Source: Candidatus Woesebacteria bacterium RIFCSPHIGHO2_01_FULL_39_32 (GTDB lineage Bacteria; Patescibacteriota; Microgenomatia; UBA8517). From it: 47,243 nucleotides of DNA. The stretch is taken from positions 1 through 47,243 of the forward strand of contig MGGJ01000002.1 in NCBI GenBank assembly GCA_001792345.1. Reading direction: 5' to 3'. This document shows, piece after piece, positions 21,829-45,961 of this stretch (its first letter is position 1; each line of letters begins with the position of its first letter). The notes under the pieces are model-generated. The model was not told where the DNA came from, searched no databases, and worked only from the letters and a program-made list of their open reading frames with translations. The translations under genes and the position numbers were made by a program.

Positions 21829-22416
21829 TTAATAACGACCTTGTGGTATTTGCGTTGATGGAGGAGTTTTTGAATATTCTGATGCGAATTTGCTATTAAA
21901 TATTTCCAAAGTGTTGGTGGGGAAATACCAAACTTCCAAGAGTACACCACTTTCTTCTTGCCCTATATATGCAACTCCCTTTTCAGGATAGACGTACAAA
22001 TTAAATCCAGCAATGTATCTTGGTCCATAAAGAACGTCTTTCGGTTCTCCAAAATTCTTTTTAATATCATTAATAGTTTTTTGGTCGCTTATGTAAACAG
22101 TTTCTTTTATTAAGGTAACTTTATCTTCTTCGAAAAGTATTTCGTGGGGTTTGCCTGGAGCGGAGGATTTAAATTGGAGTAAATTCCCACTTTGATCTTC
22201 CTTCAGGGGAGTTCCCAGCTTTTCAATCACTTCCGCTTTGGTGCTAGTTCCAGGAGAAATGTTTTTAAAGTTTGTTAGCTGTTCCAATGGTTTATTTTCA
22301 ACAGGTTCTTCTGATTCCTTTTGAAGAAAGATTTTATCTATGATGATGAGCGAAAATAGAATTGCAAGAAGGATGACGATTGTTTTATGTGTTTTTATAA
22401 ACTGAATCATTGTCAT
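21829..22416 (-). CDS. Membrane-anchored protein with SmpA/BamE-like domain (tentative)
   Basis: A 195-residue protein with one membrane segment at about 11-30 and an external domain. The stretch ISPGTSTKAEVIEKLGTP, repeated in weaker form as DQKTINDIKKNFGEPK, resembles the helix-turn motif of SmpA/OmlA (BamE) folds. It follows the J-domain/metalloprotease gene after 12 bp on the same strand and is the last gene of the secretion cluster. Its role is unknown; a chaperone-like or docking function at the outer face is only a suggestion. ATG two codons in is an alternative start. Confidence 0.68.
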   Translation of the reverse strand: MTMIQFIKTHKTIVILLAILFSLIIIDKIFLQKESEEPVENKPLEQLTNFKNISPGTSTKAEVIEKLGTPLKEDQSGNLLQFKSSAPGKPHEILFEEDKVTLIKETVYISDQKTINDIKKNFGEPKDVLYGPRYIAGFNLYVYPEKGVAYIGQEESGVLLEVWYFPTNTLEIFNSKFASEYSKTPPSTQIPQGRY

Positions 22417-22428
22417 TAATTATATCTC

Positions 22429-25302
22429 TTACTCTTGAAAAACTGTATTTTTTGCAAAATCGTAATGGATTGGATACAAGTCCTGGAAAGTAGTTCCGGG
22501 CCCGCAATATGTTGGACCCGACCAAAAAGTAGGCATTTGAGCATATAGTGCGTTTCCTTCTGCGAAACCTTCAGAAGGATCCGATGTGGACGAGTAGCTG
22601 CATAAAGGTAGTTCAGACGATGCTCCTGAACCTTCGTATGCTGATTGAAGTTCAGGCATTATTTCAGGTTTTTGTAAATGATGTGAGGACTCATGAGTTA
22701 AGATGTAGATCGAGTCCTGTAGATTATCTACGCCTCCAGCATCAAATTTAATATCGCAAGCCTTCGTGTGTGTGTGCCATCCCCATAGGCTTACTGCGGG
22801 CGGATCGTAGCATAGATTGACAGGTCCCCATGAAGTACTGCTGCAAACTTTAGCAACAAAAAGCGGGTGTTGGGAAACTAAATCAGATACGGCCGCTTCC
22901 ATATTAGCCTTGTAGTTTGCAGGCCAAGGATAAGCATTATCAACAACCGCGTAACATCCAGTCGGACATTCTCCAATACAAATACTAGCAAAACCAGATG
23001 CTTCTGAACGATTGGCACCTTCAGGGGTAGCCGCAACCGTAAATGTGTCAACTATTAAAGAATCGTTAAAATCTGTAGATCCGTTGCCATCAACATCTCC
23101 ATAGACAACGTCATACATTATTACGTACGACGTGCCAGCTGAGATACTTGGGGGAACAGCGTCTGTAAATGATGGAAATGTTTGTGGTCCAACCCGAATG
23201 TTTTTGGGGTCAGGACAGGTTTGACTATAATCCGCTTTGACTTCACATTTGTAAGTAAAAGTAATTGCTGTCAAAGTACCTTGTTTAGCTGTAATCGTAA
23301 TAGTATAAGTTGCATTAATTTCTGTATTATTTGGTCCTTCGGTGGGGGAAGCTACTTTTTTGACCTCAATATAAGGTGATTCAGGTACTCCGGGAGTAAA
23401 GTTATACCCTCCCCACGGAACTACGAAGGCGCTGTTGTTGATAATAAATACTATAAATATAAATAGTAATGGTACGGCAATTACCCCAATTAATATCGCA
23501 GGTGTAAATATTGGTGCAGCTACCGTGATTGCACCGAGCAAGAGTGTATTCACAAAGCCTGCTGCCTGTCCGCCTGCCGCCATTGCCCCAACCGAGCTTA
23601 AGTAAGAAGCCCCCATTGTTCCAGCTCCAGCTAGTGCGAGACCAGAACTTCCCGTGGCTAAACCTCCAACCAACATAAGCGCCCCTAAACCCATTATTGC
23701 TTTTCTGGTATCTTTTTCTCCGGTTAATAATCGGGGAATAAAAGAAAGAATATTTTTAGCGACATTTTTTAGAGTACCTAGAACCTGCAAAGCAATTGCT
23801 ACAGCTGTGCCGACTCCGGGTGCAACAGCGCTTGCTATAGCAGTGATACCTAATTTTGTAGCCAACCAAGTGGCACCCTTTTTAAGAATTCCCTTTGCTC
23901 CCGCCTTAACGCTACTTACAGCAAGTTGTTTAACTTCAGTTTTTGCAATCGTCTTCGTTGTGGTTTTTAGTGCTTTTCCTGCTAATTTCTGACTGGTTTC
24001 AATAAGTGACTTTGTTTGATTAAAAAATGAACCAATATCGGGAGAAAGATATCCGTTTTGTCTTTCTAGACGTAAGGTGGGTAATTCTGCGCTGGTCGGA
24101 ATGGTTGATTGTATAGATATTTCGGGATTTCTGTTGGCAATTTCTAATTGTTTACTAACGTCTTTATCAAATCCTTCTAGTGCAATTAAAGCCTTATTTA
24201 AGTCTTGTTCTTGTTGGAGTGTGATTATGTTATTATTGACTGCCTCAATTCCGGCCCCTTCTAGTTTTTCAGGTGTTCCTCCTCCAAGATGGAACGCAAG
24301 CGCGGTATTTATATGTCTATCGTCTAAACCGATCTCGTCAATTGCATCTTGACTAAAACCTGCATTTTTTAAAGCTTCATTTGTTTCAAACTTAGTGGTT
24401 ACATCTGAAGTAAAGGGACCTGCGGCTGATACGGTATTTGCATAATCCGCTGTATTTACTCTTGCTTCAGTAGTTTTTTTTGATTCAGCAGTCGTCGGAG
24501 TAAAGACTATGTAAACATCGCGTGACCCTGTTGGGGTTCCTGCCTCTGTTGGTTGTTCTTGTGCTGCGGCCTCCTTTGTTCTCCAGGGCTCCTTACCACT
24601 AACACGATCATAATTTTCTCGGTTTGTATCGTTTGATAAAACTGCGTATGCTTCGTTGATGTCTCTCGTTTTTTCTCCATACTCAATTTTTAGATTTTGC
24701 CATTCTGCTTCTGATATTTTTCCGCTTCGAAACATAGCCTCTGCTTTGTCGGGATGGTATTGTAAAAGCTGTTTTCTATATGCGCTTTTAATCTGATCTT
24801 GGGGTATATCAGGATCAACGCTAAGAATTTGATAGTAATCACGGACAGTAGTTTTGGGTGGGGCTTTAGGTCCAGCCTCATAAGTTTTTTCTCTTTGTCT
24901 TTCCTCATATCTAGCCTTTTCACCCGTTTTTTCCTTGTCAGTTTCTGGCTGTTCTTCTACAATTTGGAGTTCTTTTGTCTCGGGGATCATTTCCGCTTCT
25001 TCCCCCTCTATTGTTCCTAGCGCTTTTTCTTTTTCCGAGGTATCTTGAAGTGCTTTATATAATTCTTCGTAAGCAATAGGCTCTATTTTTAAAAGTTCTT
25101 TTTCAAGGTTTTTAGCTTCGCCTGGAGGAAGTAGCTCAATTTCTTTTTGGGAAAGCGGTTTTATCTTTAATCTCGAGTCTGGGATGAAGCGAGATATTGA
25201 AAGTATAAACTGAGTAAGTCCCCAAAGACCTTTAAATTTATACCTATTTTCTAATAATCCTACTACCTCCGAATGTTGAGAACTTGCTAAGATATTTGCC
25301 AT
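22429..25302 (-). CDS. Chimera: J-domain, membrane region and external HExxH metalloprotease
   Basis: A 957-residue protein. Residues 1-150 are charged. A J domain at 154-232 carries the HPD triad at 183-185, needed to stimulate a DnaK-type chaperone. Residues 470-625 are hydrophobic with several membrane segments. After about 630 the protein is extracytoplasmic and Cys-containing: a beta-sandwich-like stretch, an EF-hand-type loop with D736, D738, N740, S742, D744 and D747, and a terminal domain with HESSH at 870-874 followed by SEGFAEGNALY (E911/E915), the arrangement of zinc metalloproteases. It sits 19 bp downstream of virB4 in the same operon. Domain calls are firm for J and HExxH; the combined function is unknown. 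Confidence 0.85.
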   Translation of the reverse strand: MANILASSQHSEVVGLLENRYKFKGLWGLTQFILSISRFIPDSRLKIKPLSQKEIELLPPGEAKNLEKELLKIEPIAYEELYKALQDTSEKEKALGTIEGEEAEMIPETKELQIVEEQPETDKEKTGEKARYEERQREKTYEAGPKAPPKTTVRDYYQILSVDPDIPQDQIKSAYRKQLLQYHPDKAEAMFRSGKISEAEWQNLKIEYGEKTRDINEAYAVLSNDTNRENYDRVSGKEPWRTKEAAAQEQPTEAGTPTGSRDVYIVFTPTTAESKKTTEARVNTADYANTVSAAGPFTSDVTTKFETNEALKNAGFSQDAIDEIGLDDRHINTALAFHLGGGTPEKLEGAGIEAVNNNIITLQQEQDLNKALIALEGFDKDVSKQLEIANRNPEISIQSTIPTSAELPTLRLERQNGYLSPDIGSFFNQTKSLIETSQKLAGKALKTTTKTIAKTEVKQLAVSSVKAGAKGILKKGATWLATKLGITAIASAVAPGVGTAVAIALQVLGTLKNVAKNILSFIPRLLTGEKDTRKAIMGLGALMLVGGLATGSSGLALAGAGTMGASYLSSVGAMAAGGQAAGFVNTLLLGAITVAAPIFTPAILIGVIAVPLLFIFIVFIINNSAFVVPWGGYNFTPGVPESPYIEVKKVASPTEGPNNTEINATYTITITAKQGTLTAITFTYKCEVKADYSQTCPDPKNIRVGPQTFPSFTDAVPPSISAGTSYVIMYDVVYGDVDGNGSTDFNDSLIVDTFTVAATPEGANRSEASGFASICIGECPTGCYAVVDNAYPWPANYKANMEAAVSDLVSQHPLFVAKVCSSTSWGPVNLCYDPPAVSLWGWHTHTKACDIKFDAGGVDNLQDSIYILTHESSHHLQKPEIMPELQSAYEGSGASSELPLCSYSSTSDPSEGFAEGNALYAQMPTFWSGPTYCGPGTTFQDLYPIHYDFAKNTVFQE

Positions 25303-25321: not shown

Positions 25322-27256
25322 TTATTGTGTTTCTTTAGTTATTACTCGCGCGGTCTCACCCGGAGAAACTGCGTTTGTAAAGCTTGTCAGTTGTTGTGCT
25401 TGCTGTAATAATTCTGAAGGTTTTGTAGTAATTAATTTATGTTCTTCAGCCGAAGCTACAACGCTAATTGGAGCATGGTTTGTTCCGGCAAAAAAGATAC
25501 CTTCCCCGATATTTGCACCCAGCAAAAGATTCCGTTCTCCTTGAGATAAATAAAAAACTTCTCCTACCCTGTCTATCGCTGCAGGAGACTGCTTGAAAAG
25601 AACTCTAAGGGCGCTGTTGGTCACAATTGCTTTACCTATATCTTGTGCAAGGAAATCTTCCACATCCTGAGTGATTGTAGTTAAACCAAGATAGTATTTT
25701 CTGGCACGTTTTACAATAGACCAAAGAAACTGTGCCGAATCTTCATACCTCATCATATGCCAGGCCTCATCGACTACCATAAGTCGAGGTTTTAAATCTT
25801 TTCTAATTCGAGTCCATATAAAGTCCAGAATTACAAACATTGCGATTGGTCTTAACGCATCTTGAAGTTCACGAATTGAAAAAACGGTGAATGGGTTTTC
25901 AATTTCTATATTTGTTTGTTTGTCAAAAATTCCAACAAAAGATCCTCTTACAAATTTTTCAATTCTAGCTGCCAGGTCAAGTGCTTCTGGAGTTTCCATT
26001 CCGATCAGGATTTTATAAAGATCCTCCATTAAAGGAGCTTCTTTAGTTTGCGTAATAGGATCTTGTGTTATGCCCTTGCTTCTATATGTGGCAACAATCG
26101 CTCTATCCAAAAGGGCATCTTGTAAAGGAGTGATAGCACCCATTATTACTTTAAAAAGTGAATGTAGGGATAGAATTTTTAAGCCTAAATTATTTTCTCC
26201 CGGTTCATATACCTGAGCAAGATCAAAGGGATTAATTTTCGACGGTGAAGAAAAAGAAAAGGATATATGCTGCCCTCCTACGGCCTCCGCTAGGGCTTTA
26301 TATTCGCCTTCGGGGTCTATTACTATTACTTCTGTTCCCAACATTAATGAACGTACGGACTCCAGTTTTACAAAATAGCTTTTTCCGGCGCCGCTAGTCG
26401 CGAATATGGTCATATTGCTGTTCTCTAGAGAAAACCTATCGAAGATGATAAACGAGCCGTTTTGCGTGTTAATTCCATAAAGAACACCTTTGTCGCCGGA
26501 TAGTTCTGCAGAGGTAAGGGGAAAAGTTGTTGCTAGGGAAGTTGTATCCATATTTCTTGTAATAGAGAGCCTGTCGAGGCCAAAAGGAGCAGTTGATAAA
26601 AATCCGTTTTCCATATCAAGAGTTGTGTGCTGTGCTTTAATTAAAGTTGATCCTAGAGTGGATTCGACCTGCTTTGATATGTGATTGAGTTGTTCCAAGT
26701 CAGCAGCACGAACAGTTATATAGAATCCGAATTCATAAAAATGCTCAGCACCTTTAACCAATTCTTCTTGAAGTAGCCTAGCGTCTTCAAGTTTTGCTGT
26801 TGTGGCGGGATCGACTATTTTTCCTCTTTCCAAATCGGTTGATATTTCTGCCTCCATCTCTGCAACTTTTCTCATAAGGTCATCCAATACGCTTTTCCCC
26901 TCGATTGGGTAGATGAAAAAGGAAACATCTAATGAACTGTTAAAATTTATTATTTGTTCGAGCCAGCCTGGAGAAACAAATCGAGGGTAACCCGAAATAA
27001 AAAGTGTTCGTAGATAGACGCCGTCTATTTGTAAGTAATCAAAGTCAATTTCCACTTTTCTAGGTGCGATGACGTCCAGTAAATCCATATTTTGAGTTGC
27101 TATTGCTGCTACAGGATCGACAATTTCGGGCTTGTTTGTAGAATCTTGCAGTGCTTCTTGGGGTTGGGTCGAGAGATTTTGGACGATGGCAGAAGCACCC
27201 TTCGGATTTTCAGGAGGACTGGATTTTTTGATGCGTTTTAAAAAATTAAAGGCCAT
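25322..27256 (-). CDS. virB4: VirB4/TraC-type T4SS ATPase
   Basis: The motor ATPase of type IV secretion systems, at the inner face of the membrane. It is 644 residues: an N-terminal CagE/TrbE-like part to about 270, Walker A in TIFATSGAGKSYF (about 286-293), VIVIDPEGEY after it, Walker B in RLMVVDEAWHMM (491-502), and an arginine-rich C-terminal part with the TTITQDVEDFL block. A Pro/Gln-rich tail precedes the domain. The TraC-like gene 5 bp upstream probably supplies the missing N-terminal region. Operon order is PrgI, TraC-like, VirB4, J-protease. Confidence 0.93.
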   Translation of the reverse strand: MAFNFLKRIKKSSPPENPKGASAIVQNLSTQPQEALQDSTNKPEIVDPVAAIATQNMDLLDVIAPRKVEIDFDYLQIDGVYLRTLFISGYPRFVSPGWLEQIINFNSSLDVSFFIYPIEGKSVLDDLMRKVAEMEAEISTDLERGKIVDPATTAKLEDARLLQEELVKGAEHFYEFGFYITVRAADLEQLNHISKQVESTLGSTLIKAQHTTLDMENGFLSTAPFGLDRLSITRNMDTTSLATTFPLTSAELSGDKGVLYGINTQNGSFIIFDRFSLENSNMTIFATSGAGKSYFVKLESVRSLMLGTEVIVIDPEGEYKALAEAVGGQHISFSFSSPSKINPFDLAQVYEPGENNLGLKILSLHSLFKVIMGAITPLQDALLDRAIVATYRSKGITQDPITQTKEAPLMEDLYKILIGMETPEALDLAARIEKFVRGSFVGIFDKQTNIEIENPFTVFSIRELQDALRPIAMFVILDFIWTRIRKDLKPRLMVVDEAWHMMRYEDSAQFLWSIVKRARKYYLGLTTITQDVEDFLAQDIGKAIVTNSALRVLFKQSPAAIDRVGEVFYLSQGERNLLLGANIGEGIFFAGTNHAPISVVASAEEHKLITTKPSELLQQAQQLTSFTNAVSPGETARVITKETQ

Positions 27257-27261
27257 ATAAT

Positions 27262-27930
27262 TTAAGCAAAAATGTCCTTCTCTTTTACGGGTGTTTCAGG
27301 ATTATAGACATTATAGAAAAGTTCAATTAGCTCCTCTGTTGTTAATTGTTTCAGTTTAATGGTTAGTCGACCCGCCTGTCTAATTAAGTGGTCTCGTTTG
27401 GGGAAAAGAGAAATTTTTGCTTTACGGATTACATATGATTTTGGATAAGGCAAGGGAGCTATCTTTTTTGAGGTTCTAAAAGTTGAAGCAATTGACTTTG
27501 CAACACCAAGTTCATAGGGAGTGAAAAGAATGACGATATAAAATCGTTTACTTAATACATTCTTCTTTTTAATAGCATCTTGGATAAACTTTTTGTAGTC
27601 TTCCATCAACCCAAGTAATTTTTGATTCTTGATTCTCTTTCCGGCTTCTACTAGAAAATCCATATAGCTACTTATATCTTTCTTTTGGCTTCGTACTACA
27701 ATTTGAACAGCAAAGTTAAAAGAATTAAGTAGTCCTGCGTAACTTGCAATTACAGCTCGCTGTTCCGTTTCGGATAACAGCCCGAAATTTAGAGACGTTG
27801 ATTCCATGACAAGTGCTGCACCACCGTTTTCGTAAATTACAACCCCATCGACAATGTCGGCAATAGGTAGTAGGTCCTGAGTGGACGAGCTTAATGCTTT
27901 ATCCGGCGTACTTAGTAAAGGTATTCTCAT
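27262..27930 (-). CDS. TraC-like N-terminal domain protein of the VirB4 module
   Basis: A 222-residue soluble protein. The pattern IADIVDGVVIYENGGAALVMES, then LLSETEQRAVIASYAGLLNSF, then FAVQIVVRSQKKDISSYMDFL is that of the N-terminal domain of VirB4/TraC ATPases, which docks to membrane components. Here it is a separate gene between PrgI (4 bp gap) and VirB4 (5 bp gap). It has no nucleotide-binding motif. Splitting of this domain from the ATPase is seen in many Patescibacteria and some Firmicutes systems. Confidence 0.82.
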   Translation of the reverse strand: MRIPLLSTPDKALSSSTQDLLPIADIVDGVVIYENGGAALVMESTSLNFGLLSETEQRAVIASYAGLLNSFNFAVQIVVRSQKKDISSYMDFLVEAGKRIKNQKLLGLMEDYKKFIQDAIKKKNVLSKRFYIVILFTPYELGVAKSIASTFRTSKKIAPLPYPKSYVIRKAKISLFPKRDHLIRQAGRLTIKLKQLTTEELIELFYNVYNPETPVKEKDIFA

Positions 27931-27934
27931 TTTA

Positions 27935-28912
27935 TTAAGATATTAAGTTTTCAGATTGTTTTTTCGACCATATTGCGATTGGCGGAATAATTTCACCTTT
28001 TGCTTCAAGAGTGATGGGTTCAAAAGTGTAGCCTTCTTTTTCTGTGATTATTTCATACATTCCGTTAAGTAGCGGTGTAACAATCATAAAGTGTCCCAGT
28101 TTATTGCTCTTCAACGCCCTAACCGGCCTACCTTCCGAATCTCTTATTTCCAAAATTGCTGCTTCGATTATTCCGCCACTTGGGTCCACAACCTGACCTA
28201 CTATTACGTTCGGTTTTGTAGGAGGACTGGGGGGAGCAGCTTCCTGAGAAAATTGAGCAACCTGTACTCCTTCAATTTTTTTACCCACAGAAGGAGTTAG
28301 CGTAGATATATTTGTCGGCTGAGGTGTTGCCTCAGGCGTTTCATTTATTCTAGCTTTTTCCTCTTGTGATACGGTAATTATTGGAGACGCAGGGACTTTC
28401 TCTTCCTGTGAAGGAGGTTCTGGGAGGGTTACTGATTGGGGAGAAATCCCTTGGACGCTTGCTAACTGTTGAGTAACGCTTGAGAGAAATGCACTTTCCT
28501 TTTCCTCGAGGTTTTTCAGCTCAGGTGCAGGAGTCATAACAGGAGTGCTTTCGCGCGGAATAGATATTTGAGTTTCAGTAGTGCCGGGTTCAGGCGAAAA
28601 AAAATTTTGTTTCTTTTGGCCCTTTCGCCACACATAAAGGGTTGGGGAATATATCGATTTAATGAATAGAAAGATCCACGTTGAGAGCGGACGATCTTGA
28701 AGTGGGAAAAAAGCAAAGGCGATCCCTGTTAGAAAAGAAAGTATGATAAGTGGCCACTTTACATAACTTGCTGCATTACTGGTGTAAACCAAAAGTGCCA
28801 CAAGTGCTCCACCCGCCACTTGGAAAAACTGCTTGATCGTCATGTCTCCCACAAGCCTGAATTGGTAGGCAGAGATCTGTTGTGGTATCGGATGCTGTTC
28901 TTCGAGTTCCAT
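27935..28912 (-). CDS. PrgI/VirB3-like membrane protein with Ig-like C-terminal domain
   Basis: Residues 1-100 form a PrgI-type protein: HPIPQQISAYQFRLVGDMT, then two membrane segments (about 30-48 and 52-70) and a short tail. A Pro/Ser/Glu-rich linker of about 110 residues follows. Residues about 233-318 form a carboxypeptidase-regulatory-like beta-sandwich (VIVGQVVDPSGGIIEAAILE, GHFMIVTPLLNGMYEI). PrgI proteins sit beside VirB4 as a VirB3 equivalent; the attached domain is unusual. By analogy to VirB3 both ends may face the cytoplasm, but this is not settled by the sequence. Confidence 0.85.
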   Translation of the reverse strand: MELEEQHPIPQQISAYQFRLVGDMTIKQFFQVAGGALVALLVYTSNAASYVKWPLIILSFLTGIAFAFFPLQDRPLSTWIFLFIKSIYSPTLYVWRKGQKKQNFFSPEPGTTETQISIPRESTPVMTPAPELKNLEEKESAFLSSVTQQLASVQGISPQSVTLPEPPSQEEKVPASPIITVSQEEKARINETPEATPQPTNISTLTPSVGKKIEGVQVAQFSQEAAPPSPPTKPNVIVGQVVDPSGGIIEAAILEIRDSEGRPVRALKSNKLGHFMIVTPLLNGMYEIITEKEGYTFEPITLEAKGEIIPPIAIWSKKQSENLIS

Positions 28913-29327: not shown

Positions 29328-29430
29328 GCACTTATACCCTTCTACTCTTATACTCTATATCGTGAACCCTTTTTTTCAAGACTATAGCTTTTTCACAGGG
29401 AGAGTTGTGTTAAAAGGTGCGTTGGGGTGG

Positions 29431-29436
29431 TAAAAT
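29431..29436 (+). promoter_or_regulatory. -10 box of the 753-residue protein gene
   Basis: TAAAAT ends eight bases before ATG 29445, implying an almost leaderless transcript. A weak TTGTGT lies upstream at 20 bp. The longer frame start at 29427 would precede the -10 and is unlikely. Confidence 0.45.
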
Positions 29437-29444
29437 ATGGGTAT

Positions 29445-31706
29445 ATGGTAGAACAAGGATCAACGGAAAAGGCCGACAAAGAAGAAAGAGCTCCATTGCA
29501 GCCGGATGTAAAATCCGATAAGGGTGCTACTGAATCTGATGAAACCCAAAATTCTTCTAAAAAAAGTAAAGAGGACGAACTGGTTGAAGCAGTAAGAGAG
29601 ATTACTTCTGCAGTAAATCAGGCAAATAAGGACATTGTGGCGTCCGTTAATAATCTAGCAGGCCAACTTGAAGCTTACGCTAAAGCAATAGGCCAGCAAA
29701 TAGCCCTACTCGAGAAAAGAAAAGATACGGCATTGGTTGACGCAACGATTGATGCAATGGTCAAAAAATTAGAGCCGGTTATTAGAGAATTTACTGAGGC
29801 ACTAGATGGTGTAAAAGACGCTTCAGATCGGGAATTTAGACAACTTAAATATAACGAAGATTTGATGAAGGCTTATTTAGAACAAATCGAGCAGGCACAA
29901 AATATTCCAGACGAACTTAAAAACCCCACCCTTGACAGGATGATCGGACGTTTATCCGATGAGGATAAAGCGGAGTATGAAGCTACTGTAAGAGAAGAAG
30001 TAAGAAATGGTAGAACAGTGGAAATCCATCAGGTACGCGGTAAGGAATGGAATGAGACAAATGAAGTTTACCAAAACATGGTTGAGGATTGGTTTGAAGA
30101 AAGAATTAGGGAAATGGAATCAGTCGAGCAATCATTCGAAGAACAACCCGATGTTTATCGATATTTATCTCTTTATGCAAACAACTATGTTCTTAGGAAA
30201 GATACGAAACCGTTTGGGGAAAGAATTAGAGACAACCTTGAGACAAGAAGAATTAGACATAGAGTCGTTAGAGTTTGGAATATGGCGGGACCTGAAGGAA
30301 TTTTAAGTGAAGCTTCAAGAATTACCTTCACTACTTGGAGAAAGTTATTTAAGACCGAAAATATTGGAACTTATGTGTTAGATAGACGTGGTAATAGAGT
30401 AAAAGATCCGAAAACGGGTGAAGATAGAAAAGAAAACCACATTGAAAACGAACTTCAAAATTACGAGAGAATGGGAAGAATTTTGAGGGGGAAAAGAGAT
30501 AGGTTAAGACAAATTCAAAGGTCGCCTGGGGGTGGAGATAAGACAGAAATTAAGGCCTTGGAAAAAGAGATAAAGATTAAAGAGCAGTATATTTTTGACT
30601 ATTACAGTCTGGGGGGTTCGATAGAGGATACAAATCCAGACTTTTTTGTAAAGCTGGGTGGTGAGATCGAAAAACCCAAAGACGAAGATTTCAGAAAATA
30701 TCAGATAGAGCACCCAAATCCTGATTTAAGTAGCAAAAAAGCCAGAGAGCATAGAGATGCAATTTGGGCCAAGAGATATGCCGGAGGACTTTGGAGTATG
30801 ACTTTGAGAGCCGCCACCCACGACATTCAACTAAATGGTAGTGGTGATTTTTTTGCAGCAAGAATAATGAATTTCAGCGACCGTCTGACTAGAAATAACC
30901 TAATGAGAGATTCAAGCGAAATATGGGATCCGACTAGGGTGGATGACCCCTTTGATTTGGGGTATATGGATGTAATGACTTCGCTCTTGGGGAATGTTGA
31001 GAACCTAGATAGTTTGGGAGTTTCAGGGAATCAGAAAGTGGTGTCTGGAGAAAAAGTTGTCGGCATAAAAAGCTTAGAAAATTTTAAGTGGGGCAGTAGC
31101 GAGGTTTGGGATAAAGCGTTAATGAAAGAGGATATTAGACCACCAGAGGGGATGTATGTTATTAGGATGACGTATTTTAACGATGCCGACAATACTCGAA
31201 AGAGAATGTGGGCTGCAGATAGCTATTTCCATAAACCAACGCTTGAAAATTTAATCAATATGGAAGGTGTATTTGCACATTCAGGAACTGGAAAAAGAGA
31301 CGCGATAATAAAAGATAGTTCCGGCGAAAGGGTAATTGGAACCGTAAAAGATATTACTCCTATCGAAGTAAAGTGGATGGAGCTTCTTGATAGGTCGTTA
31401 GAATACTTAAAAACCAAACAAGGTGCGGAATGGATGAGCGATCCTACAACTGGTTATCCTCGTCTTGCTATGACTCGTGAGTGGATCAATACTGCACGTA
31501 GAAATGGAATGATTGGTGAAGAGACAAAAAATATTTTATTAAGAAAATATTTTGGAACAAGGAATACCTTTCTGCTTAATAGGATATCGGAAATTAACGT
31601 GTGGGGGGCTGATTTAATACATAATGCAGGAGGTATGACTTGGAGCGCCTTCATGGAATATATTAAAAGAATGTTTAAATATATGTTTTCAGATGAAGTT
31701 AGATAG
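29445..31706 (+). CDS. Large soluble coiled-coil protein of unknown function inside the T4SS cluster
   Basis: I do not recognise this 753-residue protein. It has no signal peptide or membrane helix. Residues 1-45 are polar and disordered; about 50-150 are helical with coiled-coil character (VREITSAVNQANKDIVASVNN); the rest is very rich in Arg, Lys, Asp and Glu and ends with a short amphipathic helix, FMEYIKRMFKYMF. It is the only plus-strand gene between 21.8 and 40.4 kb. Candidate roles are a cytoplasmic scaffold for the machine or a cargo protein; both are guesses. Start ATG 29445 is chosen from its -10 box. Confidence 0.82.
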   Translation: MVEQGSTEKADKEERAPLQPDVKSDKGATESDETQNSSKKSKEDELVEAVREITSAVNQANKDIVASVNNLAGQLEAYAKAIGQQIALLEKRKDTALVDATIDAMVKKLEPVIREFTEALDGVKDASDREFRQLKYNEDLMKAYLEQIEQAQNIPDELKNPTLDRMIGRLSDEDKAEYEATVREEVRNGRTVEIHQVRGKEWNETNEVYQNMVEDWFEERIREMESVEQSFEEQPDVYRYLSLYANNYVLRKDTKPFGERIRDNLETRRIRHRVVRVWNMAGPEGILSEASRITFTTWRKLFKTENIGTYVLDRRGNRVKDPKTGEDRKENHIENELQNYERMGRILRGKRDRLRQIQRSPGGGDKTEIKALEKEIKIKEQYIFDYYSLGGSIEDTNPDFFVKLGGEIEKPKDEDFRKYQIEHPNPDLSSKKAREHRDAIWAKRYAGGLWSMTLRAATHDIQLNGSGDFFAARIMNFSDRLTRNNLMRDSSEIWDPTRVDDPFDLGYMDVMTSLLGNVENLDSLGVSGNQKVVSGEKVVGIKSLENFKWGSSEVWDKALMKEDIRPPEGMYVIRMTYFNDADNTRKRMWAADSYFHKPTLENLINMEGVFAHSGTGKRDAIIKDSSGERVIGTVKDITPIEVKWMELLDRSLEYLKTKQGAEWMSDPTTGYPRLAMTREWINTARRNGMIGEETKNILLRKYFGTRNTFLLNRISEINVWGADLIHNAGGMTWSAFMEYIKRMFKYMFSDEVR

Positions 31707-31736: not shown

Positions 31737-33305
31737 TTAATTTGAAATTCTAAGTATTTTTCCCAACCGACTTCCTGCCAGCTGTTCGTATAATTTCTGA
31801 CCTCTTTGTTTTCCGTAAGCCTCCTTCAATGAACCCAATTGGTACCCAAACGGTGACCAAACAGCTCCGGCACCCGCTGCAATCGGTGCTCCAATTGCGG
31901 TTCCGTAGCCAAATGGTCTACCTGATAGTGCGGATTGAATAATGTTGGCAATACTCGGAGCTAGCATTAAAATACCAAAAGCAACAAGAAAGCCGAAGAT
32001 TCCACCTACCGGTAAATTAAATCCCGGCAGTTGAATTGATCCGGTGGTACCCAAAGGATCAATTTCTAAAGGGTTTATTATATTTACATTGGGAAAGAGA
32101 TTATTAAGAGCAATAAACAATTGATCCATAAGAGACGCATTTGGATTTGCGTCCAAAGAACTCCAAAATATATAGTGGGCCAAGAAAAACATTGCAATCA
32201 CCCCCGGAAACACAGCCACTTGAGAAGCTAGATTTTTCAGCCAACCACCGAAACCCCCACTACCGGGAAAAACACCCGCCAATATTAAAAGAGGACTAAA
32301 TATAATAAGAAGAACAACGTTGATAAATGTTCTAAAAAGAACCCATATAATTCGTACCCAGACTATGATGTAAACAATTATTAATATTATAAAAATTACA
32401 ACCGAAAGAATTGACAATAGTGCACCTAGGCCGAAAGCGAAGGTCAGTCCGGATCCTCCGGGAAACATAATTAAACCGATGATATAGACCAGAAGCGTAA
32501 TGGCCATTGAGGTAAAAAGATTAACACCCAATAGTTGTCCGAAAAGTGCAGTACCGTCAAGACCGCTAATTGGATCTGCGGCTAGGGCGAGGATTCCTAC
32601 CAAGGCATAGGAAAGATCGATAATAAAACCTGCTATTGCATACGAAAACGTGATGAAAATAAGAATCATAACAAGTCGAGGTATGGCTGATTGGATAGTA
32701 ATGACGGTTTGTGGAGAAATTTTTACCCTAAACATTATCATGAAGGCTAGAACCACAAATGCCAAAACCATAAGGAAATAGGCGAAGTTTCTTGTTGCGC
32801 CCCATATTTGTTGAATCGGAGAAAGTGTTCCAAAACCAAATCCTGTCTGGGCTTTCGCTTCGGGTATTAAGTGTAGTTTCGATAGAGTATTTCGAATGTA
32901 ACCAATTCCGGAAGAAGTAGACGATAAAGTTATACGGTTAAATGTGGAGGCAAGAGAGGGTTGTCCAGCGTCTCCAGTGCCAAAATTCTCATCAATCCAT
33001 GGTTTTATACAAGCAGCTATTGCGTTTAAGTCGGCACTATCTGCTTTTGTAAAACACTGCAATAATTCTTCTGGCATTAGAACCGCAATCAGTGAATACC
33101 AAATCCAGACAACCTGGGCTTGAGTATAGCGCTCACCAAAAATTTCGTCTTCATTATTTGGGTCATATACTTTTGCAAAAAATTCGTTAATTGTCGGGTG
33201 ATACCAGGTACCGCCTTTTGTAACTTGTGCATGTGCGTAAGGGGTAACTAAAGTTACCAAAAGAAAAGAAGCCAGTATTATTGAGAGGAGGAGTTTTTTA
33301 AACAT
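31737..33305 (-). CDS. VirB6/TrbL-like polytopic membrane protein
   Basis: A 522-residue protein with a cleavable-looking signal (MFKKLLLSIILASFLLVTL, then AHA before QV), an external segment to about 160 and some eight membrane segments through residue 460. Long runs such as TLLVYIIGLIMFPGGSGL and IRIIWVLFRTFINVVLL fit the VirB6/TrbL channel class. The C-terminal 50 residues are cytoplasmic and basic. It follows the Cys-rich gene after 60 bp and forms the likely inner-membrane channel of the machine. Family assignment is by topology and position. Confidence 0.75.
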   Translation of the reverse strand: MFKKLLLSIILASFLLVTLVTPYAHAQVTKGGTWYHPTINEFFAKVYDPNNEDEIFGERYTQAQVVWIWYSLIAVLMPEELLQCFTKADSADLNAIAACIKPWIDENFGTGDAGQPSLASTFNRITLSSTSSGIGYIRNTLSKLHLIPEAKAQTGFGFGTLSPIQQIWGATRNFAYFLMVLAFVVLAFMIMFRVKISPQTVITIQSAIPRLVMILIFITFSYAIAGFIIDLSYALVGILALAADPISGLDGTALFGQLLGVNLFTSMAITLLVYIIGLIMFPGGSGLTFAFGLGALLSILSVVIFIILIIVYIIVWVRIIWVLFRTFINVVLLIIFSPLLILAGVFPGSGGFGGWLKNLASQVAVFPGVIAMFFLAHYIFWSSLDANPNASLMDQLFIALNNLFPNVNIINPLEIDPLGTTGSIQLPGFNLPVGGIFGFLVAFGILMLAPSIANIIQSALSGRPFGYGTAIGAPIAAGAGAVWSPFGYQLGSLKEAYGKQRGQKLYEQLAGSRLGKILRISN

Positions 33306-33365: not shown

Positions 33366-36188
33366 TTAAAGACAAGATCCGTAAATAGTCAGTGCATTAA
33401 CAGTGTGATCTGCAGGATTACACGACCCGGCCCAGTTTACGAGTGCGGTAACAACGTCTTCACAACTCCAACTACTTTTTTGACAACTGCTACCTCCTCC
33501 GGCTGGATCTGAGAGATCATAGTTTATACTACCAGGCTTACAAGGTGAATTAGCGAGGTTGAAAAGCGCTTTATGATTATTAGCTAGCCATTCTGCCATA
33601 TTCATGGTTGCTTCGTAAAAATTACACGGGTTATAACCGCTTGGACACTGCTGATAGGGTCCGAAAGCACCCCCACCAACATAACAGAAGTCTCCCTGGT
33701 TTGCATTATAATTACAGGGTGGATCGTAGTATGTGGGGTTACAATTAGGAAATTCACATAATACGGCATTGGTAATATTTTCCTGTGTATATCTTCCATA
33801 GCAACTCGGGTTTGCAACACGGGGTTCAAACCCGCCCTCTGCATACATCAGGGCTGCGATAAGATCAGGCGGAACATTATATTGGCTACCCGCGGATTCA
33901 AAAACCTTTCTCATAAGATCAGGTATTGTTTCGTTTCTTATCTGGGTGTGAGAAAGCTTACAACTAGAGTCAGTGGGTAGAGGCGGTATTTCGGTAAATG
34001 GACACTCAGCCGGTGGGATAGGCTGAGCCGAGGCGGAAAGACAGCCTTGTCCATATCCTTGTGGTCTTAAAGCAGTTTGCATACACTGCAGGAAATATTG
34101 GTGAATTCCCCCGATGTAGCGGAAATAAAGTTCAGCCTGGCCAGGAATTCGGTTGTTGCCCGCCCTTATTGATAAACCAGGTGTTAGCGGGATAAAATCC
34201 ACGGGCGTTGCGCCGGGAATTGCCCAAAGCCGTCTTATGGGACGCCCTTCCACGTCTTCGATTTTAGGGAACATTCTTTTGAAAACACTGGAAGGACCGG
34301 CAACAAGTTTCGACCAGACTTCTTTGGCGAGAGGAGTTTTGGTTATAGTTTTAAAATTAACGGCAACTGTATTGCTACAGGTTTCAGTAAAGTCAAATGC
34401 TGAAATATCGACAGTTATGGGTTCGCATTTTTTGTATACAGTTATATTTCCGGAACATTCAAGTCCACCGCAACATTCTCCGATCGGTGTTCCAAACATC
34501 TCACAAGTTTCATCCTCTCCTAAGCAGCCGGGAGGTGAAGGCCAAGAACCACAGCCGACTCCGCAAAACTCATTATCACCACAATCAACTTGTCCGTAGT
34601 ATGTTGTACAATCCAAATCCTCTTGCGGTAAGGGTTCGCAATTACCCCCGGACGCTTCGCAAACTCTTCCTTCACCTGCTACTGCTTTAGTAAAGGTGCA
34701 GGCAACTTGGGCTGTATATGCAACTGTTGCGGAGAGCTCGCCCGCAAAAAGATCATCCCCCGGATTTGTGCGAACTTCGGTCAGGTCACAAAATTTATCA
34801 TAAGGGACATAGCTTGATCCCGGTTCGGCGTCAAGGTCGGCTTCCTGGGGTGAATAAACTTGCTGCAAAAGATCTGCCAACTCAAATGATTCCTGCATGT
34901 GGGCAAAGAAAAGATCTGCCGGTTCCTGATTTATTATTGAAGAATCAATAATAACTACATCATTCGGATTGGAAGGCTGAATTGCATAGTCGTCTATTTC
35001 TACATTGCCAAGTCTATCTTCGGTTGACGAGAAAGGGATGTAGGTGAATAACCTCCAGGGATTATCTGCTCTCCAGGATAGATAAGCTGACCAGAAGTCC
35101 TCCCAAGTGCCGAAGTTACGTCTCAATGGGGGAAGGTTAAACTTACTAATCCAGTCGGTGAGGCGAATCTTATCCTTAATAATATTAGTATAACAACCTG
35201 CGGGATGCCCCAAAAGATTTGTACAACCGATTATTTGGTCATGTCTTATGCAGTTTGGGTCTTTTGGAACGGCATTCGGATCACAGTTAATCGAGCGCTG
35301 TGCTTTCCTTACTTCCTCACCCCTTCTTACTATTTGACTTTCCCAAGACAAAAGTCGTTTCAAAGGGCCGGAGAAATCAACCAACCTTTTCTCTCCCTCT
35401 TCTGAAAGTCCGCCCAAAAGATTTGTGTCCGGCGGATTATACTCTGCCCGTCCGATGAGGCCGTTTATGTACCAACTGACATATTCATTTACTTTGGTTG
35501 GATCATCAACCGTTTCATCTCCCTGAAAAAGGCTATTTACTACCTTATATGGATCAGATTCATTTCCCAATGAGGGTTCGGTAAAACCCATGATGGGAAA
35601 GTAGGCTTCCCTAAGATCAACCGCAATATCCCTTACCCGATCTATAATAAAGTAACAAGTTTCTGTCCCATTTCCATTATCTATGCACTCGCTTGCCGCA
35701 CAGTCATTATTATCTTTACAACCTACGTCCGGTATACAAGCGCTGATATTTCTGTCTACACATTGTCCACTGCCATTACAGTATTTGCAGCTAAAAAAGA
35801 AGTCAGAGCCGCCTGAGATTGGAGGAAACGGTTGAATTTCATTTCCTTCAAAAAAATACTTCCAGTCAAGGGAAGGAATCATGTTGCCGTCGGAATATCT
35901 TTTTTCGATAACTATTGGATCAAGCAAAACCAGATCGTTTCCGCAAAAAAGAGCCAGATCTTCAGCATCAGGATTGCAAGGACTTGCTTGGTAAGGCCTT
36001 AGAGAGTGGAATTCGTTGTCACTAGTTTCGTTACAAGGAAAGGGCGTGGGGGTTGGCATAGGTATAGCCTCTTGAGCGATGACCGGTTTTCCGAAATCGA
36101 TGTATGGGAAAAGCAGGTATAGAAAGAACCCAAAAAGTATGGATAGGAGTAGATAAATATTTTTTTTGTAAGTTCTAAATAAGCGCAT
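33366..36188 (-). CDS. Large Cys-rich surface protein with C-terminal transglycosylase-like domain
   Basis: A 940-residue exported protein: basic start, membrane segment or signal at about 11-33, then a Cys-rich external region with many paired cysteines. One segment (DNA 34425-34526) fits C-x6-C-x9-CC-x4-C-x9-C, a cystine-knot-like spacing also present twice in the upstream pilin fusion. The last 190 residues look like a lytic transglycosylase (SLT/VirB1-like): YNVPPDLIAALMYAEGGFEP with a candidate catalytic Glu, and GGGAFGPYQQ. A VirB1-type role, opening the wall for the machine, would fit. The gene is 4 bp from the pilin gene before it. Confidence 0.8.
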   Translation of the reverse strand: MRLFRTYKKNIYLLLSILFGFFLYLLFPYIDFGKPVIAQEAIPMPTPTPFPCNETSDNEFHSLRPYQASPCNPDAEDLALFCGNDLVLLDPIVIEKRYSDGNMIPSLDWKYFFEGNEIQPFPPISGGSDFFFSCKYCNGSGQCVDRNISACIPDVGCKDNNDCAASECIDNGNGTETCYFIIDRVRDIAVDLREAYFPIMGFTEPSLGNESDPYKVVNSLFQGDETVDDPTKVNEYVSWYINGLIGRAEYNPPDTNLLGGLSEEGEKRLVDFSGPLKRLLSWESQIVRRGEEVRKAQRSINCDPNAVPKDPNCIRHDQIIGCTNLLGHPAGCYTNIIKDKIRLTDWISKFNLPPLRRNFGTWEDFWSAYLSWRADNPWRLFTYIPFSSTEDRLGNVEIDDYAIQPSNPNDVVIIDSSIINQEPADLFFAHMQESFELADLLQQVYSPQEADLDAEPGSSYVPYDKFCDLTEVRTNPGDDLFAGELSATVAYTAQVACTFTKAVAGEGRVCEASGGNCEPLPQEDLDCTTYYGQVDCGDNEFCGVGCGSWPSPPGCLGEDETCEMFGTPIGECCGGLECSGNITVYKKCEPITVDISAFDFTETCSNTVAVNFKTITKTPLAKEVWSKLVAGPSSVFKRMFPKIEDVEGRPIRRLWAIPGATPVDFIPLTPGLSIRAGNNRIPGQAELYFRYIGGIHQYFLQCMQTALRPQGYGQGCLSASAQPIPPAECPFTEIPPLPTDSSCKLSHTQIRNETIPDLMRKVFESAGSQYNVPPDLIAALMYAEGGFEPRVANPSCYGRYTQENITNAVLCEFPNCNPTYYDPPCNYNANQGDFCYVGGGAFGPYQQCPSGYNPCNFYEATMNMAEWLANNHKALFNLANSPCKPGSINYDLSDPAGGGSSCQKSSWSCEDVVTALVNWAGSCNPADHTVNALTIYGSCL

Positions 36189-36192
36189 AAAC

Positions 36193-36507
36193 CTACTGAG
36201 TTATTTTAAAGTTTAAAATATTTAGTTGTCCTGTAAAGACGCCGACAAATCTCAAAAACATATAAGAAAGCGCTACAAGGACAATTCCTCCGATTGCATA
36301 GGTTAATGTCTTTTTGGCTTGTTCAAGTGCTTTAGGATCACCGGCTGAAGTTATAAATTGAATTCCTCCCCAGATAAGCATTGCAAAAAGAAGTATCCCA
36401 CCAAGTCCGAGAAGTGCTGCGAGTGTGTTTGCAAATATTCCTTCAAATCCTTGTAAGGTTGCAATTCCGTTAACGTTAGTTACTTGAGCAAGTAAAAAGG
36501 AACTCAT
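36193..36507 (-). CDS. VirB2/T4SS-pilin-like protein (array member 8)
   Basis: A 104-residue protein with an N-terminal hydrophobic leader, two membrane helices (about 29-50 and 72-92) and the polar inter-helix loop FITSAGDPKALEQAKKTL that marks the family. It is separated from the other pilin genes by a terminator and has its own promoter, and it is followed after 4 bp by the 940-residue gene. This may be the pilin-like subunit tied to the assembly proteins rather than the bulk pilin. Confidence 0.85.
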   Translation of the reverse strand: MSSFLLAQVTNVNGIATLQGFEGIFANTLAALLGLGGILLFAMLIWGGIQFITSAGDPKALEQAKKTLTYAIGGIVLVALSYMFLRFVGVFTGQLNILNFKITQ

Positions 36508-36513
36508 AACTTT

Positions 36514-36542
36514 AGTGTAGCGAAAGAACCAAAGAAGGGCAA
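36514..36542 (-). promoter_or_regulatory. Leaderless-type promoter of the pilin gene at 36507
   Basis: On the minus strand TTGCCC (36537-36542), 17 bp, TACACT (36514-36519), then six bases to the ATG. It restarts transcription after the terminator at 36548-36573 and should also drive the 940-residue gene. Confidence 0.6.
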
Positions 36543-36547
36543 CTCCA

Positions 36548-36573
36548 ATAAAAAACCCCGCATCTGCGGGGTT
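36548..36573 (-). terminator. Rho-independent terminator within the pilin array
   Basis: On the minus strand the sequence AACCCCGCA-GA-TGCGGGGTT forms a 9-bp GC-rich stem with a 2-nt nominal loop (4 if the closing pair opens), followed by a run of T. It lies 20 bp after the stop of the pilin gene at 36594. This is the strongest terminator in the window and ends the pilin operon. Confidence 0.9.
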
Positions 36574-36593
36574 ATCCTCTTTCCTTAGCTATT

Positions 36594-36953
36594 TTAGACA
36601 CCACCTTGGGCGTTTGGAATGTTGAGCGACAAGATATTTATACCAAAAAAGATGTTAACAAGATTTATTATCGCCCAGGCTGCAAACACAATTACTAAAC
36701 CAATTAAAGCTGCTGTAATTTGGCCTCTGGCTGCCTCGGTCTGAGCTTTATCTCCTCCAGAGGTGATGTACTTAATACCACCCCAAACCAGCATGAAGAA
36801 GAAAATTAGTGCTGCAATGATAAGAACAAGAATTATGAGCGCTGAAATAATTGTAGCAATCGTAATATTATTGAGACCCGAAAATTGTCCTCCCGGACCA
36901 ATGTTAATGGCTTGATCTGCTTGGGCTAATATTGTGCTGAAAGCTGTAAACAT
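36594..36953 (-). CDS. VirB2/T4SS-pilin-like protein (array member 7)
   Basis: A 119-residue protein: a leader with a candidate signal (ILAQA), two membrane helices, and the loop YITSGGDKAQTEAARGQI between them. It has a strong promoter of its own (TTGACA-N18-CATAAT) and is followed at once by the strong terminator, so it can be expressed as a single-gene unit. That layout suits an abundant structural pilin. Confidence 0.87.
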   Translation of the reverse strand: MFTAFSTILAQADQAINIGPGGQFSGLNNITIATIISALIILVLIIAALIFFFMLVWGGIKYITSGGDKAQTEAARGQITAALIGLVIVFAAWAIINLVNIFFGINILSLNIPNAQGGV

Positions 36954-36969
36954 ACTTATACTGATTAGT

Positions 36970-36999
36970 ATTATGCTGATAACTAAAATCCTTTGTCAA
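36970..36999 (-). promoter_or_regulatory. Strong promoter of the single-gene pilin unit
   Basis: On the minus strand a perfect TTGACA (36994-36999) and CATAAT (36970-36975) are 18 bp apart. The expected start is about ten bases before the ATG at 36953. Confidence 0.68.
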
Positions 37000-37023
37000 G
37001 TGGGAAAATCTATCAATATTTAT

Positions 37024-37398
37024 TTAGGGACAGATTACCCCGGAGAACGTTATATTAAATTCTCCCACATTAATCCGTCCGATACCGATGCCAAAGAAAC
37101 ACGATACCAAATTTAGTATTGCAAAAAAACCAAGTAAAATTACAACTCCAACTAGAGCACTTGCAATTTTACTGCGAGCAGACTCCATTTTCATTTTGTC
37201 TCCACCTGAGCTGATCCACTGAATTGCACCGTAAATTAAAATAAAAACAAATACGATTGCCCCAATTACAAAACCCAAACCAACAAGAGCAGGTATCAGT
37301 TTGCCAAAAAATTCCGGGCCAGTGAGAGCCCCAAGATCTCCCAATGCGGGATTACTTATTATCTGTGCGATTAGAGGTGAAACAATAAGTGTTTCCAT
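37024..37398 (-). CDS. VirB2/T4SS-pilin-like protein (array member 6)
   Basis: A 124-residue protein with two membrane helices and the loop WISSGGDKMKMESARSKI. The frame extends eight codons upstream into the previous gene, but ATG 37398 follows the stop at 37400 by one base and begins METLIVSPLIAQ, matching the leader shape of the other members. The C-terminal tail (IGRINVGEFNITFSGVICP) is longer than in its neighbours and ends with an extra Cys, so an external tail is possible. Confidence 0.85.
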   Translation of the reverse strand: METLIVSPLIAQIISNPALGDLGALTGPEFFGKLIPALVGLGFVIGAIVFVFILIYGAIQWISSGGDKMKMESARSKIASALVGVVILLGFFAILNLVSCFFGIGIGRINVGEFNITFSGVICP

Positions 37399-37399
37399 T

Positions 37400-37771
37400 T
37401 TACGGTAGTCTAATTGCTTCAATCATAGCACCCAAATCAAGAATACTAGGAAGACCAAGTAAAATTGCGATTAGGCTCATGATAAACATTCCGGCTATAA
37501 CCGCGACAAATCCAATAACACCAGTAGATAGTTTTCTTCTCGCATTCTCGTAGGCTGCTTTATCTCCTCCCGAAGAAATAATTGCTATAGCTCCAGTTAT
37601 GAGCATAAACATAAAATATAACGCTCCTATTATTGTCAGAAGACCAATAATAGCTGAGATGACCTGGGCTAATAATGTAATTGCGTTACTATACGTCCCT
37701 CCTTGCAACCCCAAGTTTCCTATTCCACTTAAAGGACCTATGGGGTTGGACTGTTGTGCTAGATAATTCAT
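37400..37771 (-). CDS. VirB2/T4SS-pilin-like protein (array member 5)
   Basis: A 123-residue protein: a Gly/Pro/Leu-rich leader (MNYLAQQSNPIGPLSG), two membrane helices, and the loop IISSGGDKAAYENARRKL. ATG overlaps the stop of the preceding pilin gene by 4 bp, indicating coupled translation within the array. Confidence 0.86.
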   Translation of the reverse strand: MNYLAQQSNPIGPLSGIGNLGLQGGTYSNAITLLAQVISAIIGLLTIIGALYFMFMLITGAIAIISSGGDKAAYENARRKLSTGVIGFVAVIAGMFIMSLIAILLGLPSILDLGAMIEAIRLP

Positions 37772-38127
37772 TGTGGTGTAAAGTATTGAATGTTTAGTAG
37801 CGCCCCCGGATTACCATAAAGGATCTCTCCTATTATTGCTGCGATTAGAAATGCGCCGGCGGCGACTAGTAATCCCAGTAGACTTTGCCAGATTTTCGCA
37901 GTTGCGTCGCTGATTCTTTTAGGATCTCCACTCGCAGATATGAAAGCAAGGCCCGCTATAACTAGGTTTATTACCGCGTATATTCCTGCAACGACGATAA
38001 GGGTTCTTAATATAATATTCAATAGGACTGCTATCCCGCCAACCCCTCCTCCATCAAATGCTTGTAAGAAGTCGGGTGGATTAACAGGACCCCAAGGATT
38101 TTGTGCTATTTTCATATTACTAAACAT
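37768..38127 (-). CDS. VirB2/T4SS-pilin-like protein (array member 4)
   Basis: A 119-residue protein with two membrane helices and the loop FISASGDPKRISDATAKI. The leader (NPWGPVNPPDFLQAFDGGG) is Pro/Gly-rich. It starts one base after the stop of the upstream pilin gene and overlaps the next by 4 bp. Part of the same coupled set. Confidence 0.86.
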   Translation of the reverse strand: MFSNMKIAQNPWGPVNPPDFLQAFDGGGVGGIAVLLNIILRTLIVVAGIYAVINLVIAGLAFISASGDPKRISDATAKIWQSLLGLLVAAGAFLIAAIIGEILYGNPGALLNIQYFTPQ

Positions 38128-38128
38128 T

Positions 38129-38443
38129 CTACTCGAAAATAGGGATACCTAGCGAGCTTTCAATAAACCGTACGATCAAGAATGCCGCTAAGACTATTAT
38201 AAACCCAATAAAGCCTGCAGTGATAATATTTTGTCCTTGCTGGAATTTTTGAGAGTCACCACCCGCGGTTATCATTTGAAATCCGGCAAAGATGATTAAG
38301 AATAGAAATATTACTCCGGCAACAACTATTGCATTATTAGCTATAAGAGAAACCAACTGTCCAAGACCAGGTAAGTCGGCCAAAAAATGACCTGTTTTTC
38401 CAAAAAATGTGTCTCCGATGGGAACTTGGGCAATTTTATTCAT
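38129..38443 (-). CDS. VirB2/T4SS-pilin-like protein (array member 3)
   Basis: A 104-residue protein with two membrane helices and the loop MITAGGDSQKFQQGQNII. It is first in the four-gene coupled run (members 3-6) after the inserted four-helix-bundle gene, and has its own promoter whose -10 is five bases before the ATG. Confidence 0.86.
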   Translation of the reverse strand: MNKIAQVPIGDTFFGKTGHFLADLPGLGQLVSLIANNAIVVAGVIFLFLIIFAGFQMITAGGDSQKFQQGQNIITAGFIGFIIVLAAFLIVRFIESSLGIPIFE

Positions 38444-38448
38444 ACTTA

Positions 38449-38478
38449 ATTCTAGTACAATATTATGTTATAACTCAA
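38449..38478 (-). promoter_or_regulatory. Leaderless-type promoter of pilin member 3
   Basis: On the minus strand TTGAGT (38473-38478), 18 bp, TAGAAT (38449-38454), then five bases to the ATG at 38443. It overlaps a degenerate heptamer array that trails the four-helix-bundle gene. Confidence 0.5.
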
Positions 38479-38520
38479 ATTTTAAATCTCAAAACAATAT
38501 CTTAAAACTTTTTAACTTCT
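38458..38520 (-). repeat. Degenerate heptamer array at the 3' end of the four-helix-bundle gene
   Basis: Reading the minus strand: AAAAGTT, TTAAGAT, ATTGTTT, TGAGATT, TAAAATT, TGAGTTA, TAACATA. It begins at the stop codon of the four-helix-bundle gene and runs into the next promoter. The first 14 bases recur at the end of the related pseudogene (28946-28959). Confidence 0.5.
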
Positions 38521-38916
38521 TTTACCTTTCAAAGTTAGAAGGCTTGCAGCAATCATCTTTCCGATTTCTTTTACCTCTGTGATGAGAGGTTCTGATTTTC
38601 CCGCTTCCACTAATTTGGAATCTTTAAGAAGCATCAACCAATAAATGGTTTCGTTGGCGCTTTTGAGAGCAATCTCATAAAATTTTATGAAATCTCTCCT
38701 CGAGCTAGAGGATTTGGCTTCGACCAAATTTGCTCCGATAGAAGTTGAACTACGTAACAGTTGATCTCCTATTATCCAGTAGGCTCTTTTTTGAGGAAAA
38801 TCTTTAACTAGATCAATTATAGTAAGCGAAAACTTATAAGCTCGGTATTTTACGTTAGATTTAAGATTTGCGTTGTGGTTTTGAGTTTTGACATATGACA
38901 TTTGAGTTTGATTCAC
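38512..38916 (-). CDS. Four-helix-bundle protein (23S rRNA intervening-sequence type)
   Basis: A 134-residue helical protein with the family marks RAYKFSLTIIDLVKDFP, LLRSSTSIGANLVEAKS and FIKFYEIALKSANETIYWL. It sits between two pilin genes. The frame starts with GTG 38916, overlapping the pilin stop by 4 bp, but the first 22 residues (MNQTQMSYVKTQNHNANLKS) are the translation of a heptamer array, so the conserved protein begins near residue 23; ATG 38901 is another start. Its biochemical role is not known; the family pairs with phage-diversification and rRNA-insertion loci in other bacteria. Confidence 0.82.
   Translation of the reverse strand: MNQTQMSYVKTQNHNANLKSNVKYRAYKFSLTIIDLVKDFPQKRAYWIIGDQLLRSSTSIGANLVEAKSSSSRRDFIKFYEIALKSANETIYWLMLLKDSKLVEAGKSEPLITEVKEIGKMIAASLLTLKGKRS
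38847..38915 (-). repeat. Degenerate heptamer array at the 5' end of the four-helix-bundle gene
   Basis: Minus-strand units: TGAATCA, AACTCAA, ATGTCAT, ATGTCAA, AACTCAA, AACCACA, ACGCAAA, TCTTAAA. Two units are identical and most keep A-A-N-T/C-C-A-A. It is translated as the odd N-terminus of the protein. Confidence 0.5.
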
Positions 38917-39293: not shown

Positions 39294-39300
39294 ATATGTG

Positions 39301-45951: not shown

Positions 45952-45961
45952 CAAATAAAAG

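Follow-up and report, generated by a model that had tools for sequence, protein, structure and literature searches.

The window analysed here is a stretch of 47,243 nucleotides (contig MGGJ01000002.1, positions 1 to 47,243, assembly GCA_001792345.1) of Candidatus Woesebacteria bacterium RIFCSPHIGHO2_01_FULL_39_32. It lies in a 1.17 Mb genome that is 95% complete and whose nearest named relatives are Candidatus Woesebacteria (Microgenomates). On the minus strand the order of the genes is a PrgI-like gene, a VirB4 N-terminal/TrsD-like gene, virB4, a gene for a 957-residue membrane protein that starts 20 nt after the virB4 stop codon, and a gene for a 195-residue protein, which runs towards dnaN and dnaA on the plus strand. 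The features of the region are the following.

21829-22416 (-): partner gene, 195 aa, N-terminal TM plus a part weakly resembling BamE/DUF4309
22429-25302 (-): T4SS protein downstream of virB4, 957 aa, one uninterrupted reading frame
24607-24840 (-): J domain, residues 155-232, predicted cytoplasmic; HPD (residues 183-185) at 24748-24756
23440-23853 (-): membrane region, residues 484-621, with one strong TM (603-621), weaker Gly-rich hydrophobic segments and K/R-rich flanks on the inner side
22948-23385 (-): external stalk, residues 640-785, modelled as an Ig-like beta sandwich, exchanged together with the enzyme
23062-23097 (-): EF-hand-like loop DVDGNGSTDFND, residues 736-747, an insertion seen only in this protein, function doubtful
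22432-22947 (-): gluzincin domain, residues 786-957, related to PPEP/ATLF (M34-type) peptidases
22681-22695 (-): HESSH, residues 870-874, two predicted zinc ligands and the catalytic Glu
22594-22596 (-): Y903, predicted oxyanion-hole Tyr, equivalent to Tyr178 of PPEP-1
22558-22572 (-): EGFAE, residues 911-915; E911 is the predicted third zinc ligand
25322-27256 (-): VirB4 ATPase (NF045971, E=1e-110)
27262-27930 (-): VirB4 N-terminal/TrsD-like protein (NF041427 TrsD, E=0.003, and VirB4 models)
27935-28912 (-): PrgI-like protein (PF12666, E=1.1e-5) with a C-terminal carboxypeptidase-regulatory-like domain (PF13620)
29427-31706 (+): 759-aa protein on the opposite strand inside the T4SS region, no family; a homologue was found only in relative genome G009 among the loci examined
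31737-33305 (-): conserved T4SS-cluster protein, 522 aa, no family, with homologues in other T4SS clusters
33366-36188 (-): 940-aa protein with a weak SLT (lysozyme-like) match (PF01464, E=0.03), possibly a wall lytic enzyme
36193-40419 (-): array of about eight VirB2-like pilin genes (NF045849, PF18895) that match one another in phmmer searches, one of them 372 aa long
166-843 (+): free-standing Peptidase_M23 protein, 225 aa (E=3.8e-27), so wall-type peptidases exist outside the T4SS gene
45601-45952: tmRNA gene with the tag AKPNYNFAYA

The cluster fits the chromosomal, dnaA-proximal T4SS of the MPF-FATA-like type described for Patescibacteria (PMC12102498). The VirB4 match was strong, whereas the PrgI, TrsD and pilin matches were below the curated cut-offs. 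The same paper notes that VirB6 is scarce in Microgenomatia. An identity of the 957-residue protein with VirB6 was rejected, since no VirB6 model of Pfam or NCBIfam matched it, nor was VirB6 among the families matched by its 37 aligned homologues. A SLT, CHAP or other wall-hydrolase domain was not found in this protein.

The observation of the initial annotation, a J domain and an external HExxH domain joined in one protein directly behind virB4, was confirmed, with HPD, the EF-hand-like loop, HESSH and EGFAE all at the residues it had named. The J domain matched PF00226 over profile positions 1-63 with E=1.4e-15, above the curated cut-off. A search of the genome contigs with the protein alone found no relatives, so VirB4 was used as bait. 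A search of 95 relatives then gave about 40 homologues, in nearly all cases directly after virB4 and near dnaN. The membrane segment and the external stalk are their common core. Of 37 homologues aligned, 21 match Peptidase_M23, 4 carry a J domain and 2 match CHAP. A later scan added a phosphodiester glycosidase (NAGPA) end, unusual for a T4SS, at the loci L214 (5223-7595) and L216 (6456-8828); the Pfam match was obtained in L214, and L216 has a near-identical C-terminus. The VirB4 of several relatives holds an intein of 547-614 aa inserted in the Walker A motif after residue 292 (loci L052:5201-8716, L048:4496-8083 and L065:1730-5326). Intein_splicing and LAGLIDADG matches were confirmed in L052 and L048, and genome G019 shows a similar break in its VirB4 match.

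The topology was tested by the distribution of cysteines. In 39 homologues we counted 8 Cys in 20,046 residues before the last TM and 296 in 11,348 residues after it (Fisher 6e-119), so the C-terminal part is extracytoplasmic. The number of TM helices, one strong and two or three weak, is not settled. Together with the K/R-rich inner flanks the cysteine distribution places the J domain inside and the enzyme outside.

Neither Pfam nor NCBIfam names a family for the C-terminal part, and weak M64, M91 and reprolysin hits probably reflect only the HExxH motif. Fifteen homologues from the search carry the HExxH domain. When more distant ones were included, H870, E871, H874, Y903 and E911 were invariant in 30 aligned sequences, and E915 was nearly invariant. 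The HExxH plus Glu site is not chance. A profile of these sequences found the Pro-Pro endopeptidases at E=1.7e-8 over almost the whole domain, including the whole active site, and ATLF domains at 5e-6. In PPEP-3 the corresponding residues are H153, E154, H157, Y190 and E197, where Glu197 is the third zinc ligand and Tyr190 the oxyanion residue (PMC12828418). They match in order and similar spacing, with the Tyr 8 residues before the Glu here and 7 in PPEP-3. Foldseek with a 328-residue model was dominated by Ig-like matches, and the domain was therefore modelled alone (pLDDT 93.9, pTM 0.91). With this model Foldseek found metallopeptidases, PPEP-1 (TM 0.63/0.57, probability 0.99) and ATLF, but the E-values to solved gluzincins were weak (0.01-0.07; 0.07 for PPEP-1), which leaves it undecided whether the overall fold is that of the PPEPs. 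The initial annotation had set a fold that does not bring H870, H874 and E911 or E915 to one metal site, or the loss of these residues in homologues, as grounds for giving up its reading. At the level of homologues and fold the reading withstood this, while the active-site geometry in the model was not measured. The S-loop that closes on the substrate, with Lys101 and Trp103 in PPEP-1 or Tyr113 in PPEP-3, was not recovered. A stretch of about 26 PPEP residues is unmatched in the profile alignment, corresponding to PPEP-1 residues 88-114 by our offset from H142. Pro-Pro specificity should therefore not be assumed, and cleavage between two prolines was not assayed.

Residues 640-785 were modelled by AF2 as an Ig-like sandwich (pLDDT 86.6) with Foldseek hits to Ig-like folds. 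The EF-hand-like loop has the canonical spacing, but it is an insertion in one loop of this stalk and was absent from all homologues examined. A function as a calcium loop, as the initial annotation suggested, has no comparative support and was rejected for lack of conservation.

To investigate how the external part is inherited, a VirB4 tree of 46 loci was labelled with the profile-based enzyme types (14 gluzincin, 19 M23). The labels need 10 changes between gluzincin and M23, and nine of these are forced by strongly supported branches, although the tree is a quick one with SH-aLRT support only. The labels were no more clustered than shuffled ones (178-186 of 500 as low). Pairs of one genus differ: G044 and G026 have VirB4 proteins that are 98% identical but gluzincin versus M23, and likewise G046/G028 with 92% and G014/G041 with 83%. 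The best match of the external stalk shares the enzyme type in 27 of 29 proteins, the best match of the cytoplasmic arm in 11 of 27 (Fisher 3e-5). The exchanged unit is therefore the outside part, on a base inherited with VirB4.

The gluzincin travels with the 195-residue partner. Close homologues of the partner are present in 14 of 14 gluzincin loci and in 0 of 22 M23 loci on the tree, and 9 of 9 independent contrasts agree (p=0.004). Three of these M23 labels were assigned by eye from the HxH motif, and the fourth without a profile label (G020) rests on its Pfam match. In 380 genomes across the phylum, 8 of 9 genomes with a strong gluzincin match (E<1e-20) have a strong partner match (E<1e-15), and none of the other 371 does. 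Distant gluzincin proteins in T4SS clusters have the partner next to them in 17 of 19 cases. The exceptions are L132, at a contig end, and L081/L227 (G299), where none was detected. Weak partner-like matches occur at the same place in some M23 or other loci, so the position itself may hold a cognate gene for each enzyme type. The partner has no PDB relative and only weak BamE/DUF4309 similarity; an inhibitor fold was not tested.

The J domain is confined to five genomes, the window's own, G009, G020, G001 and G037, which all lie in one strongly supported clade (98*) of seven rows on the VirB4 tree, with three changes. The G009 homologue (L033:6277-9585) has two J domains in tandem, residues 109-189 and 203-283, of which the first lacks HPD. 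G020 and G001 end in M23, and G037 is cut by its contig end. Most gluzincin-bearing relatives have no J domain. Large J-domain reading frames in G023, G069 and G075 proved to be ordinary DnaJ-sized proteins of 275-300 aa. The J domain is thus a property of the inherited cytoplasmic arm. The genome has a DnaK (HSP70 at G000:C4:73074-74858, E=2.4e-247) and a separate, regular DnaJ. Recruitment of DnaK to the VirB4 side is plausible but unshown, and stimulation of the DnaK ATPase was not measured.

The interpretation of the initial annotation was only partly supported. The cytoplasmic J domain, the external zinc-metalloprotease-type domain and the T4SS context were correct, and, as it had stated, no described system with this arrangement was found; the literature gave no paper joining a J domain, a T4SS and Patescibacteria in this sense. 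That the J domain and the protease form one coupled unit which unfolds and cuts is not supported.

We consider with moderate confidence that the gene encodes the membrane-anchored enzyme component that follows virB4 in the chromosomal T4SS of Microgenomatia. The sequence comparisons demonstrate the homology, the position, the topology by cysteine bias, the exchange of the whole external part among unrelated hydrolases on an arm and membrane segment inherited with VirB4, and the co-occurrence with the partner, whereas enzyme activity, substrate, a role in opening an envelope or host surface, the function of the partner and the recruitment of DnaK are our inference. In this view, the enzyme sits at the outer mouth of the T4SS and cuts surface proteins or wall cross-links, of the cell itself or of a neighbouring host cell, so that the pilus or channel can be built or can engage, and it is changed when the surface to be crossed changes. 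The partner would fold, anchor or restrain the protease, and the J domain would be a clade-specific addition that can recruit the cell's own DnaK and is not tied to proteolysis. No substrate, activity or zinc has been shown. M23, CHAP and NAGPA act on wall or glycan bonds whereas PPEP relatives cut proteins, so a single common substrate is not evident. Nearly all the named relatives are metagenome assemblies, and the hosts are unknown. In Ca. Southlakia epibionticum, peptidase and lysozyme homologues immediately downstream of virB4 are essential for epibiotic growth (PMC12102498, citing its ref. 37), which supports this explanation.

Among the alternatives, processing of the cell's own surface or pilus proteins to detach or mature them, unrelated to crossing a barrier, is unlikely but survives best. 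The closest solved relatives are the extracellular PPEPs, and PPEP-1 of C. difficile releases cells by cleaving adhesion proteins (PMC11460543, PMC12828418). In family f73 the enzyme-partner pair lies next to pilin genes. However, the segment for Lys101/Trp103 is unmatched, and an exchange with M23, CHAP and NAGPA is not expected for a dedicated adhesin sheddase. Somewhat less likely is a toxin-immunity-like pair, where the external domain attacks neighbouring cells and the anchored partner protects the producer. The strict pairing of one enzyme type with one partner type, exchanged together, the location of the partner on the opposite strand in G004/L063 and the high variability of the gene beside a conserved VirB4 speak for this. 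On the other hand, the gene is the fixed component downstream of virB4 and not an orphan effector, M23-type loci show no close partner homologue and only weak matches at that place, and the partner resembles BamE-like folds only weakly. The coupling of DnaK-assisted unfolding of T4SS substrates to their trimming as they leave is doubtful, since, although both ends are intact in this protein and in G009 and DnaK is present, the J domain also occurs with an M23 end (L036, L067), is absent from most gluzincin proteins, and the arm and the external part evolve independently.

The protein was compared with the closest known systems. It differs from the PPEPs (PPEP-1/Zmp1, PPEP-2 and PPEP-3; MEROPS M34 type) and the ATLF-like domains in its fusion to a T4SS membrane protein and an Ig-like stalk and in its dedicated partner gene; its specificity is unknown. 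With the VirB1-like wall hydrolases of monoderm (MPF-FATA) T4SS, such as the two-domain peptidoglycan hydrolase TraG of pIP501, it shares the link of an external hydrolase to a T4SS, and homologues on the same chassis carry M23 or CHAP, but here the catalytic end is a protease-type gluzincin and exchangeable, and the cytoplasmic arm may carry a J domain. With the virB4-downstream homologues of Ca. S. epibionticum it has in common the relative position, a peptidase and a Patescibacteria T4SS; sequence homology was not tested, and no gluzincin/partner exchange is described in that paper. Like the membrane-anchored class C J-domain proteins such as DjlA, it has a J domain with HPD tethered to the inner membrane, but the J domain sits on a T4SS protein with an external enzyme and is a clade-limited addition.

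What is new is the exchangeable external enzyme with a nearly obligate partner gene on a conserved T4SS base. A more far-reaching reading, which we regard as possible but tentative, is that patescibacterial T4SSs carry an exchangeable external tip cassette of stalk, enzyme and cognate partner gene on a vertically inherited cytoplasmic and membrane base. Recombination of this cassette among gluzincin, M23, CHAP and glycosidase types would retool the machine for different host surfaces, much as phages exchange tail-tip enzymes. It predicts binding of the partner, a substrate type for each cassette and an enzyme type that correlates with the host rather than with phylogeny. How Patescibacteria engage their hosts is open, and their T4SS is essential for epibiotic growth in the one system tested. 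A conserved motor with a rapidly exchanged external enzyme and an enzyme-specific partner points to the component most likely to meet the surface of the other cell.
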